Shown here in pieces: positions 6,619-57,000 of a stretch of 64,000 nucleotides of DNA. Under the pieces are notes generated by a model, which saw nothing but the letters and a program-made list of their open reading frames with translations, was not told the origin of the DNA and did no database searches. The DNA lies in NCBI RefSeq assembly GCF_030505395.1, contig NZ_CP130044.1, positions 543,001 to 607,000 of the forward strand, read 5' to 3'. The position numbers were made by a program, and so were the translations under genes. Positions within the stretch are counted from its first letter, which is position 1. Each line of letters starts with the position of its first letter. This DNA is from Asticcacaulis sp. ZE23SCel15. GTDB taxonomy: Bacteria; Pseudomonadota; Alphaproteobacteria; Caulobacterales; Caulobacteraceae.

Positions 6619-6696
6619 GCGCCATCATGCCCGGTCAGGCGTTAATCTTTTGTTATGGGGAATTTCTAGCGCTCACGTTTTAACGCCAAAGCCATG

Positions 6697-6760
6697 AGTG
6701 AGATAATAGCTGGCAAGCGCCGCAGGTACACTTCGTACCTGCAAGCGCAGACCGCGTATT
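6697..6760 (-). repeat. Repeat family A, reduced copy beyond cysK
   Basis: The core GCAGGTAC (6722-6729), a five-base loop and GTACCTGC (6735-6742) is flanked by AAGCGCC and AAGCG, with CAGACCGCG on the right. These blocks also occur at 15079-15179 and 44967-45083, but here the terminal AAATCG/CGATTT blocks are missing. The copy begins 22 bases beyond the cysK stop codon, read on the minus strand. Confidence 0.7.
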
Positions 6761-6781
6761 AGATGACCGTGGATTTGGATG

Positions 6782-7747
6782 TTAAAGGCCGTCAAAGAGG
6801 GCGGTTGAAAGATAACGCTCTGCAAAGCTTGGAATGATCGCCACGATCGTCTTACCGGCATATTCATCCTTTGCCGCCAAACGGAAGGCGACCTCTAACG
6901 CGGCCCCCGACGAAATACCTACCGGCAGGCCTTCGGTGGCCGCAGCCTTGCGGGCCATGGCAAAGGCCGCGTCGTTCGAGACGGTTTCAACGCCATCGAT
7001 CACGCTGCGATCCAGAATGCCCGGCACGAACCCGGCACCAATGCCTTGAATCTTGTGCGGCCCAGGTTCACCACCCGACAGGATGGGCGAAGCTTCGGGT
7101 TCAACGGCGATCATCTTAACGGAGGCTTTTTTCTCTTTCAGGGCTTGACCGATGCCGGTGATCGAACCACCAGTGCCGACGCCGGAGATAACCACATCGA
7201 CCGCGCCGTTGGTGTCATTCCAGATTTCCTGAGCCGTGGAAATGCGGTGAATATAGGGGTTGGCGTCGTTTTCAAACTGCTGCGGCATGACCGAACCCGG
7301 CGTGGCCTCGATGATTTCCAGCGCCTTGGCAATCGCGCCGCGCATGCCTTTTTCAGCCGGGGTCAGTTCAAGTTGCGCGCCCAGCAGCGCCAGCATCTTA
7401 CGGCGCTCCAGCGACATAGATTCCGGCATGCACAGGATCAGTTTGTAACCCTTGGCGGCGGCGACAAACGCCAGCGCAATACCGGTGTTGCCCGATGTCG
7501 GTTCAACGATGGTCGCCCCCGGTGTCAGTTTACCCGAAGCCTCCAGCGCTTCGATCATCGAAATACCGATACGGTCTTTGACGGACGATAAGGGGTTGAA
7601 GAACTCAAGCTTGGCCAGCACATCGGCCTTAGAGCCATATTCCTTCGACAGGCGGGGCAGGCGCACCAGCGGCGTATCGCCCATGGTATCAAGAATGGAC
7701 TCAAAAATCTTACCGCGCCCAGAACGCGACAGTGTGGATTCGGACAT
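6782..7747 (-). CDS. cysK: Cysteine synthase A (O-acetylserine sulfhydrylase)
   Basis: Pyridoxal-phosphate enzyme that makes cysteine from O-acetylserine and sulfide in the cytoplasm. 321 residues, normal for the family. The PLP lysine is Lys57 in NPLSSVKDRIG. The substrate-binding loop is PTSGNTGIALAF, the phosphate-binding glycine loop is SGVGTGGSITG, and GISSGAAL lies near the C-terminus. The ATG at 7747 is preceded by a good ribosome site (GGAGG with eight-base spacing). It is divergent from chpT. Family A repeat DNA lies just beyond the stop codon. Confidence 0.95.
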   Translation of the reverse strand: MSESTLSRSGRGKIFESILDTMGDTPLVRLPRLSKEYGSKADVLAKLEFFNPLSSVKDRIGISMIEALEASGKLTPGATIVEPTSGNTGIALAFVAAAKGYKLILCMPESMSLERRKMLALLGAQLELTPAEKGMRGAIAKALEIIEATPGSVMPQQFENDANPYIHRISTAQEIWNDTNGAVDVVISGVGTGGSITGIGQALKEKKASVKMIAVEPEASPILSGGEPGPHKIQGIGAGFVPGILDRSVIDGVETVSNDAAFAMARKAAATEGLPVGISSGAALEVAFRLAAKDEYAGKTIVAIIPSFAERYLSTALFDGL

Positions 7748-14967: not shown

Positions 14968-15051
14968 GCCCCCACCACCATCTACGCTTCGCTTGATGGT
15001 CCCCGGCACCGGCCACCCGGCTCCCCAGTAAACGGGGGAGGTATGTTCTTA
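14968..15051. repeat. Repeat family B unit (cheR-recR intergenic)
   Basis: The order is GCCCCCACCACCATC, a loop, GATGGTCCCC, a linker, then a CTCCCC/GGGGGAGG hairpin ending in TTCTTA. The terminal G-rich hairpin and the TTCTTA tail recur at 36394-36457 and 56935-57000, with different inner palindromes. It starts just after the stop of the small gene. Confidence 0.6.
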
Positions 15052-15078
15052 GCTTTCAGCTCATACAATTCATATCAT

Positions 15079-15179
15079 AAATCGTGAGATTTGAGTCCAA
15101 TACTAGGCGTCAAGCGCCGCAGGTACACTAAGTACCTGCAAGCGATGACAACGACGTAGTGGGCCAAAGACCGCGATTT
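15079..15179 (-). repeat. Repeat family A, full copy at the recR stop codon
   Basis: 101 bp. It begins AAATCGTGAGATTTG and ends CAAAGACCGCGATTT, so AAATCG/CGATTT are inverted termini. The centre is GCAGGTAC (15119-15126), loop ACTAA, GTACCTGC (15132-15139). Read on the minus strand, the first AA of the element completes the TAA stop codon of recR. It shares blocks with the copies beyond nrdA and cysK. Confidence 0.75.
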
Positions 15180-15792
15180 ATCGGCGTTGCTTGAAGGCGT
15201 GGGATATAGTCCCATCATCCAGCCAGTCGAGTTCACCGCCTACGGGCACACCGCGCGCCAGATAGGTGATCTGAACCCCATTACCCATGTTGTTATTTTG
15301 GGGCTTCAAGCGATCCGCGACATAGTGGGCGGTGGTTTGCCCCTCAACGGTCGCGGGCAAAGCCATGATGACTTCGGTAATGTGACCGCTGCGCACGCGC
15401 TCAACCAACCCGTCAATGCGCAGGTCTTCGGGCCGCACGCCGTCCAGAGCGGACAACAGCCCGCCCAGCACATGATAACGCCCGCTGAACGCGCCCACCC
15501 GTTCCATCGCCCACAGGGCCGAGTCTTCTTCGACCACGCAGATCATGGTTTTGTCGCGTGCCGGATCAGCGCAGGTCGCACACGGATTTTGGGTTGATAA
15601 GGCCCCGCATATCCGACAAGATTCCACCTTATCGGCGGCGTCCTGCATGGCGTTGGTAAGCGGGATCAAAAGCTGTTCACGCCGCTTAAGCAGCGCTAAC
15701 GCGGCCCGTCTGGCTGAGCGCGGCCCAAGCCCCGGCAGCTTAGACAGCAGCGCCATCAGTCGCTCAATTTCAGGGCCTGCGCCAATCGCCAT
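15178..15792 (-). CDS. recR: Recombination protein RecR
   Basis: 204 residues. It acts with RecF/RecO to load RecA at gaps. The helix-hairpin-helix [20 protein letters not shown] is followed by a four-Cys zinc site ([16 protein letters not shown]) and the TOPRIM domain ([18 protein letters not shown], then [20 protein letters not shown]). It forms the conserved dnaX-ybaB-recR string on the minus strand, although 144 bases separate it from ybaB. Its stop codon coincides with the edge of a family A repeat. Confidence 0.95.
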
Positions 15793-18194: not shown

Positions 18195-18292
18195 TAAGGT
18201 GAGACCGCGCGACCCGAAGGTGAATTCGTTGTGGCTGCTGCCTTCCGGCCCTGACCAGATTGGCGAGGCCTTCGCCCGCGCGATCTCAGGGG
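18195..18292 (-). ncRNA. ffs: 4.5S (signal recognition particle) RNA
   Basis: Read on the minus strand, it contains GGTCAGGGCCGGAAGGCAGC followed by AGCC, the universally conserved Ffh-binding tip with the GGAA tetraloop. The closing helix pairs 18277-18287 with 18201-18211 (GAGATCGCGCG with CGCGCGGTCTC, one G-U pair). Ends are estimated to within about 10 bases. The size of roughly 98 nt fits the small bacterial SRP RNA. The gene lies upstream of dnaX on the same strand. Confidence 0.88.
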
Positions 18293-21929: not shown

Positions 21930-21987
21930 TACCTCCCTGCCTGTGGCGGGGAGGGGGACCATGAACGTCGTGAATGGTGGGGGGGCT
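21930..21987. repeat. Repeat family B unit
   Basis: A CTCCCTGCC/GGCGGGGAG hairpin is followed by GGGGGACCAT, an 11-base loop and ATGGTGGGGGG. It has the G-rich hairpin and inner palindrome of the family, between the cytochrome c terminator and the end of the NlpC gene. Confidence 0.5.
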
Positions 21988-28058: not shown

Positions 28059-28124
28059 TGCCCCCTCCACCACGCCCCCTTGTGGGCGCGCGGTCCCCCT
28101 CCCCCGCTACGCAAGGGAGGAAAT
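28059..28124. repeat. Repeat family B unit downstream of DUF559 gene
   Basis: GCCCCCTCCACCACGCCCCC, a TTGTGGGCGCGCGGT segment, then a CCCCCTCCCCC...AGGGAGG block. It begins immediately after the DUF559 stop codon, in opposite general orientation to the upstream unit. Confidence 0.6.
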
Positions 28125-36314: not shown

Positions 36315-36378
36315 AAGAACTCCCTCTGATGCAGGGGGAGCTTTGGGTTAAGTGGGCTTAACCCAAAGAGGGGGTTAA
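36315..36378. repeat. Repeat family B unit (cpaA-cpaB, first)
   Basis: AAGAACTCCC...GGGGGAG, then the perfect 12-base palindrome CTTTGGGTTAAG / CTTAACCCAAAG (36341-36352, 36357-36368), then AGGGGGTTAA. It is a mirror-ordered version of the unit at 56935-57000. Confidence 0.65.
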
Positions 36379-44905: not shown

Positions 44906-44941
44906 AAAAAATCCCCTAGGGGCGGCCCTTCGGGGATTTTT
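44906..44941 (+). terminator. Intrinsic terminator after cpaH
   Basis: AAAAATCCCC and GGGGATTTTT flank a 15-base loop, 59 bases after the cpaH stop. A- and T-runs on both sides allow bidirectional use, though the nrdA side already carries a family A repeat. Confidence 0.75.
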
Positions 44942-44966
44942 GCTTTAATATTATTGCGCTGATTAA

Positions 44967-45083
44967 AAATCGTGAGATTTGCGGGGAGTATTAGGCGCCT
45001 AGCGCCGCAGGTACAGATAGTACCTGCAAGCGACGGTAACGACATAATCGTCGACACGGGCCGCCCCGCAAAGACCGCGATTT
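44967..45083 (-). repeat. Repeat family A, full copy after nrdA
   Basis: 117 bp. It begins AAATCGTGAGATTTG and ends CAAAGACCGCGATTT, identical to the recR copy in these blocks. Inner hairpin GCAGGTAC (45007-45014), loop AGATA, GTACCTGC (45020-45027). An additional stem TTTGCGGGG / CCCCGCAAA is complete here. Read on the minus strand it starts right after the nrdA TAA. Confidence 0.78.
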
Positions 45084-46958
45084 TTACTGGCAGGCGAGGC
45101 ATTCTTCATAGTCAGTCTTCGCGGCATCAATCATCGAAACGCTGGCTGCCTTAGCCTCGCCGCCGGCGAACGCCGCGCGTTGTACCGACTTGGAGCGCAG
45201 ATAATAGAGCGATTTGACGCCCTGCTCCCACGCCGTCCAGTGCAGCATGTGCAGGTCCCATTTATCGACATCGCCAGCCAAAAAGATGTTGAGCGACTGC
45301 GACTGACAGATTTCCGGGGCGCGGTCAGCCGCCAGTTCAACCACCCAGCGCTGATCGATCTCAAACGCGGTTTTGAAGATATCCTTTTCGTCGGCACTTA
45401 AGGCATCCAGATGCTGGATCGAGCCTTCGTGCTCAACGATCGAATCCCAGACTTCGAGCGTATCGAGGCCCTTTTCGACCAGCAGCGCCTTAAGATACGG
45501 GTTCTTAACCGCGAATGAGCCCGACAGGGTCTTATGGGTATAGATATTGGCCGGGATCGGCTCGATGCCCGCCGAAGTCCCACCGCAGATGATGGAAATC
45601 GACGCGGTCGGCGCAATGGCCAACTTGTGCGAGAAGCGCTCCATGACACCGCGCTCGGCAGCATCGAGGCAGGCGCCGCGCTCTTCGGCCAGTTTCACCG
45701 AGGCCTTATCGGCTTCGCGGCGCAGGTGCTTGAACAGGCGCAGATTCCAAGACTTGGCCATTGCCGATTCAAACGCGACACCTTGTGCCTGAAGGAAGGA
45801 ATGGAAACCCATCAGGCCAAGACCGACCGAGCGTTCGCGCTGGGCGGAATAGATAGCGGCTTCCATAGAATTGGGCGCGCTTTGGATAAAGTCCTCAAGC
45901 ACGTTGTCGAGGAAGCGCATGATGTCTTCGACGAAACGCGGATGATCGCGCCACTCAAGGAAGGTTTCGGCATTGACCGACGACAGGCAGCACACGGCGG
46001 TGCGGTCGCGGCCCAAATGATCGGCGCCGGTGTGCAGCATGATTTCCGCACAAAGGTTGGACTGACGCACCTTCAGGCCCAGTTCGCGCTGGTGCTGCGG
46101 CATGGCGCGGTTAACGGTGTCGGCAAAGATTAGATAGGGCTCGCCCGTCTGCATCCGGATTTCAAGGATCTTTTGCCACAGAGCACGGGCATCAACGAAC
46201 TTGATGACCTCATTATTCTTGGGCGAGCGCAGCCCAAACGGATTGCCGTCACGCACCGCTTCCATAAATTCGTCGGTGATCGAAATTCCGTGGTGCAGGT
46301 TGAGCGCCTTACGGTTGAAGTCGCCTGACGGCTTACGGATTTCGAGAAATTCTTCGATTTCGGGGTGGTGAATGTCGATATAGACCGCCGCCGACCCGCG
46401 GCGCAGGGAGCCTTGGCTGATCGCCAGCGTCAGCGAATCCATCACGCGGATAAAGGGGATGATGCCAGAAGTCTGGCCCGCGCCCTTGACCTTTTCACCG
46501 ATGGAACGCACGCCGCCCCAATAGGTGCCAATGCCACCGCCGTTTGAGGCCAGCGCCACATTTTCGTTCCAGGTGCCGACAATACCTTCGAGGCTGTCAG
46601 GCACCGAGTTCAAGAAGCACGAGATCGGCAGACCGCGCGCCGCGCCGCCGTTCGACAGCACCGGCGTCGCCGGCATGAACCACAATTGCGAAATATAGTC
46701 ATAGATGCGCTGGGCGTGTTCGGCATCGTCGGCATAGGTTGTGGCCACGCGCGCGAACATATCTTGGTAGCCTTCGCCCGGCATCAGGTAGCGGTCATCG
46801 AGGGTCTTCTTGCCGAAGTCAGTCAGCACCGCATCGCGCGACGGATCGGTAACCACCTGTTTTACAAGCTTGAATTCGGCGCGCGCCTTGGGGCGCACCT
46901 CCATAAAGGACTTCATCATCGGCACAGCTTCACGTTTGACGGCATCATTTACGGACAT
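45084..46958 (-). CDS. nrdA: Ribonucleotide reductase alpha subunit (class Ia)
   Basis: About 624 residues from ATG 46958, with GGTGAG upstream; an open leader to 47069 is not conserved. It reduces ribonucleotides. Motifs: PATPVLSNGGAARGLPISCF (substrate-site Cys), NLCAEIMLHT, AVCCLSSVN (radical-region Cys) and a C-terminal Cys pair in DYEECLACQ. There is no N-terminal ATP-cone, as expected for the short alphaproteobacterial form. Its partner nrdB is on the other strand 18 kb away. Confidence 0.94.
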   Translation of the reverse strand: MSVNDAVKREAVPMMKSFMEVRPKARAEFKLVKQVVTDPSRDAVLTDFGKKTLDDRYLMPGEGYQDMFARVATTYADDAEHAQRIYDYISQLWFMPATPVLSNGGAARGLPISCFLNSVPDSLEGIVGTWNENVALASNGGGIGTYWGGVRSIGEKVKGAGQTSGIIPFIRVMDSLTLAISQGSLRRGSAAVYIDIHHPEIEEFLEIRKPSGDFNRKALNLHHGISITDEFMEAVRDGNPFGLRSPKNNEVIKFVDARALWQKILEIRMQTGEPYLIFADTVNRAMPQHQRELGLKVRQSNLCAEIMLHTGADHLGRDRTAVCCLSSVNAETFLEWRDHPRFVEDIMRFLDNVLEDFIQSAPNSMEAAIYSAQRERSVGLGLMGFHSFLQAQGVAFESAMAKSWNLRLFKHLRREADKASVKLAEERGACLDAAERGVMERFSHKLAIAPTASISIICGGTSAGIEPIPANIYTHKTLSGSFAVKNPYLKALLVEKGLDTLEVWDSIVEHEGSIQHLDALSADEKDIFKTAFEIDQRWVVELAADRAPEICQSQSLNIFLAGDVDKWDLHMLHWTAWEQGVKSLYYLRSKSVQRAAFAGGEAKAASVSMIDAAKTDYEECLACQ

Positions 46959-56934: not shown

Positions 56935-57000
56935 TACCCCCTCTGACACTTTAAGCTTTGCTTAAAATGTCAGCTCCCCCTGCCACAGGGGGAGTTCTTA
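56935..57000. repeat. Repeat family B unit
   Basis: ACCCCCT, then a palindrome (CTGACA, TTTAAGC and their complements around TTT), then CTCCCCC...GGGGGAGTTCTTA. The tail equals that at 36394-36457. The rest of 57001-57147 has no convincing gene. Confidence 0.65.

Follow-up and report, generated by a model that had tools for sequence, protein, structure and literature searches.

A family of palindromic repeats in the genus Asticcacaulis typically starts on the stop codon of the preceding gene, in nearly one orientation, and forms one long hairpin. Three copies lie in a stretch of 64,000 nucleotides from Asticcacaulis sp. ZE23SCel15 (contig NZ_CP130044.1, positions 543,001 to 607,000; the whole stretch is called the window below), where they follow recR, nrdA and cysK. 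By comparing copies across the genus we show the position, polarity, age and DNA-level turnover of these repeats. Their role is a more tentative matter. We prefer the reading that the hairpin acts at terminating ribosomes or at mRNA 3' ends and is spread by DNA copying, to which we give a probability of roughly 0.4; a selfish element with a preference for stop codons is its close rival.

A preliminary description of the window had reported two full copies, a reduced third one and a lock to stop codons. The observation is confirmed and is larger than first seen. The two full copies, with exact ends of 15 bp, are located as described, one sharing two bases with the recR TAA and the other beginning directly after the nrdA TAA on the minus strand (Table 1). 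The copy at cysK had been taken for a reduced one placed 22 bases after the stop, but it is of full length: the TGA upstream of it is out of frame, and the in-frame stop lies within its first five bases, so that all three copies of the window stand on stop codons. RecR, NrdA and CysK were identified with NCBIfam.

The repeat unit and its place on stop codons

The unit is an imperfect palindrome of 101-107 bp that forms a single hairpin of about 105 bases, according to sequence alignment and a covariance model (R1). With R1, 20 copies were found in the ZE23SCel15 genome (3.77 Mb, one contig) at E-values up to 1.7e-12, excluding four further rows for the same places on the opposite strand, and a DNA search of this genome with the window repeats gave many further matches. 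Fourteen copies with both ends, aligned in gene orientation, fold as a single long hairpin, AAATCGCGGTCTTTG ... CAAATCTCACGATTT, in which three middle blocks are exchangeable and the apical stems differ. The ends are invariant in most copies of this genome, and the outer helix is 94.3% paired in the alignment fitted to the model. RNA folds of the copies were far below those of shuffled sequence; for the recR copy, z was -4.2 as DNA and -6.2 as RNA. The hairpin GCAGGTAC-N5-GTACCTGC occurs at three places in the window, with 0.16 expected. Judged by eye, the subtypes A, B, C and D have little arm sequence in common. A weak GGTG tail motif, 3-10 bases past the hairpin, is present in 41 of 184 copies (2 and 5 at two control places) and may be the true end of the copied unit.

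When the window was searched with the 4227 Rfam families, only signal recognition particle (SRP) RNA was found at gathering scores and the repeat had no match; two sub-threshold matches to the recR copy had E above 8. The SRP match is a bacterial small SRP RNA gene at 18195-18290 on the minus strand (RF00169).

To place the repeat relative to genes we analysed 188 of about 219 distinct places, 187 in the genus and one in genome G042; those left out were mostly the weakest, or their sequence was not retrieved. For the stop positions three records, tandem or partial, were set aside, and open reading frames (ORFs) around the remaining 185 were scored with a codon model trained on the ORFs of the window. 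In 169 records a clear ORF stops somewhere from -300 to +60, counted from the start of the model; the other 16 show no clear ORF. The stop of this ORF falls at -4 to +7 of the hairpin foot (model start) in 147 of the 169, and 108 stops fall at +3 to +5 (25 at +3, 46 at +4, 37 at +5). Since related genomes have copies in common, the counts are not independent of one another. The stops used are TAA (94), TGA (29) and TAG (24). At the distal end, convergent ORFs end in the same range in 96 cases, only one of them at -4 to +7. A locked copy is present in 39 of 49 gene groups; in ZE23SCel15 itself 16 of the 20 copies are locked, two have an ORF running in and two are without a clear ORF. The lock noticed in the window is strongly supported in ZE23SCel15, in the genus as a whole and in one genus outside the family, and the copies are not placed at random relative to stop codons.

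The remaining records fall into two groups. In 15 the ORF (argF, folP-like and AcrB-family genes) runs 12-28 bases into the repeat. In seven the stop is further upstream: these are one inverted copy (L179), three copies at a cckA-like gene (G002, G004 and G009), where a duplicated foot of 12 bases upstream separates the stop from the repeat, and L072, L162 and L109. The main exceptions to the lock are L072 and L162, both from G007; the nearest clear stop lies 32 and 52 bases before them.

The stop codon sits within the hairpin stem. Among 161 distinct records the two ends are complementary in 95-99% at model positions 3-6, in 86% at position 2, in 47% at position 1 and in 17% at position 0, where the chance level is about 25%, so that the onset of pairing at the foot is sharp. 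In 73 of 129 each base of the stop codon has a Watson-Crick partner. At times the partner follows the stop between species, as at fliE with TGA/TCA in two species and TAA/TTA in one, though this does not hold for all fliE copies. The argF gene without a repeat mostly ends in WCF or WCL followed by one or two residues, and with a repeat its reading frame continues into the arm.

Covariation of the arms and DNA-level turnover

The arms of the hairpin covary extensively. In an alignment of 102 distinct sequences fitted to the model, 95.1% of the pair cells hold standard pairs (77.2% when shuffled), and 558 cells are double-changed, as against 136 in shuffles. G-U pairs occupy 85 of 6168 cells (1.4%) when one mostly G-U pair position is set aside, and 3.0% when it is included. 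SRP RNA of Asticcacaulis served as a control; there G-U pairs fill 60 of 624 cells and one-sided changes (12) exceed double changes (6), in 24 of 25 aligned sequences (L390 was left out) and with 18 changed cells only. Among the five closest genomes, 94 orthologous pairs of the same type show no double change in 49 cases, one in a single case and two to eleven in 44; a further 34 comparisons differ in type. Unique one-sided changes away from Watson-Crick pairs led to a mismatch in 39 instances and to G-U in 14, similar to our neutral estimate of about a quarter. Since the double changes are clustered and G-U pairs few, pairing changes come mainly as blocks and some singly.

These results bear on the interpretation offered in the preliminary description, namely that arms which stay conserved while the loops change speak for an RNA structure rather than for a mobile palindrome. 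As it stands that inference is unsupported, in view of the block-wise double changes, the scarcity of G-U, the 39 mismatches against 14 G-U changes, and the inverted copy and the new copies upstream of 3' remnants described below; the part of the interpretation that concerns the stop lock stood.

In G013 the 101-bp units at the pgsA-like gene and at rodA are 98.0% identical, and their flanks differ. At rodA of G002 the copy (L179) is inverted relative to the gene and both of its outer arms are homogenised. Arm homogenisation together with spacer inversion is described as a signature of template switching (PMC8604942) and resembles L179; the multibase compensatory changes described in PMC8794818 resemble the block changes seen here.

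Older copies were sought by comparing the flanks of all 188 copies, within 250 bases, with all copies, and matches at E up to 1e-4 were relied on. At this threshold an older copy or remnant lies downstream in 11 of the 188 and upstream in three, and each of the three upstream cases is the second or third copy of a tandem. When the limit is relaxed to E 1, matches are equally frequent on both sides (68 upstream and 67 downstream). Remnants are found downstream at recR (20 nt, E 3.6e-6) and dcd (19 nt, E 1.4e-5) of G009, at rodA of G003 (38 nt, E 1.6e-14) and at pyrC of G020 (32 nt, E 3.6e-6), and 5'-truncated tandem copies at fabI of G020, at the pgsA-like gene of G015 and G020 and at serA of G042; the downstream match at L201 is to the nested insert only (see Table 1). 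The fabI locus of G020 (L111, 1201-1548) holds three copies in tandem, the second and third without a normal 5' arm. Weaker 15-nt matches (E 0.003) lie downstream at recR in G002, G004 and G013. Where the type has changed or blocks are swapped, the 60 bases downstream are 0.74-0.75 identical, compared with 0.87 at unswapped copies, whereas the 300 bases upstream stay at 0.90-0.91, which points to replacement anchored at the stop. Together with the block-wise covariation, the few G-U pairs, the inverted copy and the remnants downstream, this indicates that turnover proceeds by DNA-level replacement from that anchor.

Target-site duplications showed no excess, with a mean score of 4.29 against 4.24 (standard deviation 0.07) in permuted pairs over 170 records. 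A duplication of the stop region had looked convincing by eye at ptsP, pyrC and the DnaJ-domain gene and was not borne out by this mean; scores of 7 are in excess (10, with 3.5 expected), so a few cases may be real. A Y1 transposase (PF01797) of the type associated with repetitive extragenic palindromic (REP) elements, RAYT, was the sole transposase family searched for; it was found in 4 of 25 genomes and not in ZE23SCel15. Plasmid and phage collections held no match to the repeat.

Distribution, carrier genes and features of the window

All 25 Asticcacaulis genomes, ZE23SCel15 included, are positive with R1, with 1 to 22 matches each. Of 12 genomes from other genera of the family none gave a match, and of 24 genomes elsewhere in the order one did. 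A scan of a genome collection returned 73 stretches, 34 in Asticcacaulis and 39 elsewhere; the latter were rejected as real copies, being at chance level (about 58 expected by our own arithmetic) with none above 14.1 bits with the model. A second model, R2, was built from 103 matches and run over 398 genomes of the order, 13 of which were positive: five Asticcacaulis, five of one genus in another family, one of a further genus there, and two with weak single matches. The absence of R2 matches across the order is soft, as only nine candidates were scored per genome; a closer search of nine genomes returned the same copies again.

In the second family, copies start where serA (+3), ilvC (+1) and argS (+2) end, and more loosely at two genes with weak FAD-dependent oxidoreductase matches (+9 and +6) and at a phosphoglycerate kinase gene (+15). 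Three more are at ORFs of 61-69 codons (+1, -4 and +27). The copy in the further genus ends a 74-codon ORF, cut by the contig start, at -1. One of the two weak single matches has a long ORF ending at -10 and the other has none.

Genes were identified by profile search, and names ending in "-like" are our reading. The carriers include recR, nrdA, cysK, rodA, pyrC, fabI, argF, ptsP-like, gcrA, fliE and dcd, as well as genes for a PleD-like receiver-GGDEF protein, a hybrid kinase (cckA-like), a Y-family polymerase (dinB-like), a CDP-alcohol phosphatidyltransferase (pgsA-like), a pterin-binding enzyme (folP-like) and DnaJ-domain, AcrB-family and thioredoxin-fold proteins. Several groups recur across the genus with differing subtypes: pgsA-like (13 genomes), pyrC (12), DnaJ-domain (12), fabI (10) and fliE (10). 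The recR stop hosts four subtypes and carries a repeat in 12 of the 25 Asticcacaulis genomes, in one of them a decayed one; recR in six other Caulobacteraceae is without the repeat. A clean repeat-free site is seen at ptsP in G004 and G009, and on the tree of the five genomes gain and loss are indistinguishable there. The sites at nrdA in G013 and at the pleD-like and dinB-like genes in G009 are too altered for the junctions to be read.

The terminator-like hairpin seen by eye beyond the nrdA copy places this copy between the stop and a terminator; a simple terminator scan did not list it, since its loop exceeds the limit of the scan. The nested insert of the nrdA copy, or a close variant, is found in five of the 188 copies, the others being L188 and L191 (G009), L116 (G023) and L186 (G002), and fliE of G013 holds a related stretch. 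A second, G+C-rich palindromic family of the CTCCCC/GGGGAG type is present in the window at 36315-36342, 56972-56999, 21932-21960, 28092-28120 and about 15020-15043, and occurs downstream of many copies of the repeat in relatives.

Table 1. Repeat copies of the window with associated genes and signals
Feature	Position	Strand	Remarks
Full copy at recR	15076-15182	-	Invariant unit 15079-15179 (101 bp); outermost pairs reach 15077/15181; E 1.1e-28
recR stop codon TAA	15178-15180	-	Inside 5' foot of hairpin; two bases common to repeat
recR coding sequence	15181-15765	-	195 aa tested; TIGR00615, 196 bits
Full copy at nrdA	44964-45086	-	Unit 44967-45083 including 16-bp nested insert; E 2.7e-21; folding also run
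nrdA stop codon TAA	45084-45086	-	Directly before unit; paired with TTA at far end
Nested insert in nrdA copy, CGGGGCGGCCCGTGTC	45053-45068	-	16 bp, after conserved TTTG
Full copy at cysK	6679-6786	-	Outer arms diverged but complementary, TTTAAC/GTTAAA; E 1.2e-13; folding also run
cysK in-frame stop TAA	6782-6784	-	Within first five bases of copy; protein ends LFDGL*
Terminator-like hairpin with T-run beyond nrdA copy	44906-44941	-	By eye

Competing explanations and known systems

The reading we prefer takes the repeats for an old palindrome family of Asticcacaulis and a related lineage, typically starting on the stop of the preceding gene in one orientation, which puts the stop codon into the foot of a single long hairpin directly after the coding region. 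The hairpin is presumably transcribed, and its position would be kept because it acts where ribosomes terminate, either by slowing termination or recycling or by fixing or protecting the mRNA 3' end; for such a role, which we infer, the stop-proximal REPs of E. coli are a precedent. Ectopic DNA copying would account for the spread and renewal of the repeats and for the lasting complementarity of their arms; blocks or whole copies are replaced outward from the stop codon, and some 3' remnants stay downstream. Two things seem to operate together, copying at the DNA level and some function at the stop codon. In 50 unswapped orthologous comparisons the copy is 97.5% identical, the adjacent coding sequence (300 nt) 91.0% and the 60 nt downstream 87.0%, the copy being above the coding sequence in 49 of the 50 and above the downstream sequence in 39, which suggests that copies in place are under selection. 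Several points weigh against the preferred reading. The unswapped class was picked by the absence of double changes, so these identities are biased upward, and the comparisons are not independent. Recent stem changes show no preference for G-U, which argues against strong selection on RNA pairing in single copies. Presence at a given gene is not conserved, recR being without the repeat (by eye) in 12 of the 24 other Asticcacaulis genomes, with one more lacking a RecR match, and the carrier genes have no obvious common pathway. In a bolder version, which we regard as doubtful, the repeats would be a new class of element that reads translation termination: insertion or retention would be tied to in-frame stops, the stop would form the element's own first base pairs, incoming copies would renew it at the same stops, and housekeeping and cell-cycle genes (recR, nrdA, fabI, pyrC, gcrA, PleD-like) would have their termination or mRNA ends controlled by it.

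The close rival, unlikely on balance in our view, is a purely selfish mobile palindrome without host function, its mobilising enzyme preferring gene 3' ends or stop-like sites and its hairpin serving movement as single-stranded DNA or as a cruciform. The near-identical units at different genes and flanks in G013, the few G-U pairs, the GGTG tail, new copies at the same stops as older remnants, and losses and decay of copies would all fit it. However, target-site duplications are not in excess, Y1 transposases are rare in the genus, the plasmid and phage collections gave no match, and unswapped copies evolve more slowly than coding DNA; moreover, a T-purine-A target alone cannot select in-frame stops in one orientation. 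The same genes are occupied across the genus with different subtypes, and the left border is fixed while the right border varies. These features and the block swaps would also be expected if placement at stops were ancient and only gene conversion or template switching at occupied sites now took place, with the resident 5' arm as the fixed left border. This is improbable considering the little arm sequence shared by subtypes A-D and the other genes, again at their stops, that are occupied in the second family, and it leaves the original placement unexplained.

An mRNA 3' structure kept by stepwise compensatory mutation, which the preliminary description had favoured, is consistent with the excess of double-changed cells, the low folding energies relative to shuffles, the 14 one-sided changes to G-U and the few single double changes. 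It is already weakened by the near absence of comparisons with exactly one double change and by G-U being rarer than in SRP RNA of the genus, where one-sided changes dominate, and we hold it to be quite improbable. About as improbable is a protein-binding or cruciform site in DNA, for a nucleoid protein, gyrase or replication: Watson-Crick pairing with few G-U, the invariant ends and the inversion of one copy would suit such a site, but exact stop codons and a single orientation are not accounted for. Intrinsic transcription terminators can hardly be meant. Strong hairpins do follow stop codons, and TTTT occurs in 88 of 184 copies within the last six model bases and the first six after them; yet five or more T in eight bases from the stem end are found in only 3 of 184, the hairpin foot overlaps the stop, and beyond the repeat at nrdA, ptsP and pyrC a second hairpin, terminator-like, is visible by eye.

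Integron attC sites have the core sites RYYYAAC ... GTTRRRY, and this motif was found in none of 184 copies. A stop-anchored repeat of such size, or such a repeat in Asticcacaulis, was not found in the literature searched, with most subscription journals outside the search. Miniature inverted-repeat transposable elements and their like (ERIC, RUP, NEMIS, RPE) are similar in having about 100 bp and terminal inverted arms, and here too some ORF ends (argF, folP-like, AcrB-family) read into the repeat, but the present family has no detectable target-site duplication and a strict stop placement and polarity. The CcrM-associated intergenic repeats (CIRs) of Caulobacter are likewise intergenic, about 110 bp long and alphaproteobacterial (PMC2229807, PMC10969869). 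A CIR is described as two arms and a linker with exposed GANTC, whereas our repeat is a single hairpin with paired ends, a distinction drawn from the descriptions of CIRs. GANTC is present in 65 of 184 copies, with 62.9 expected from shuffles, and 60 of the sites are at one place.

REPs are close as well: they are palindromic, extragenic and often 3' of genes. Their GTAG ends are reported often to supply a TAG stop (PMC3733652). The REP tags are rare within 12 bases of the 184 copies: GTAG was found distally in 2 and proximally in 4, CGTC distally in 14 and proximally in 7. Ribosomes are said, from earlier work, to be stalled by REPs that lie no more than 15 nt from a stop (cited in PMC12306157), and a hairpin within this distance is what our repeat provides in 147 of 169 records. 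REPs differ in their size of 20-40 bp, against 101-107 bp here, and in E. coli 446 of 4,072 are reported within 15 nt of a stop (PMC12306157), whereas the stop of our repeat is in the stem in most copies. The repeat is also nearly restricted to one orientation, and the Y1 match is absent in 21 of 25 genomes of its genus. Template switching, on the other hand, is a mutational process and no element family, and leaves the stop lock unexplained. Palindromic repeats are common in bacteria, but as a rule they are loosely placed and what they do is disputed. A family held within a few bases of the stop codon, in nearly one orientation, in a whole genus and in a second family, and with the stop inside its stem, makes an action of such repeats on terminating ribosomes directly testable, and it offers a clear natural case in which covariation, the usual proof of RNA structure, arises largely by block replacement at the DNA level.
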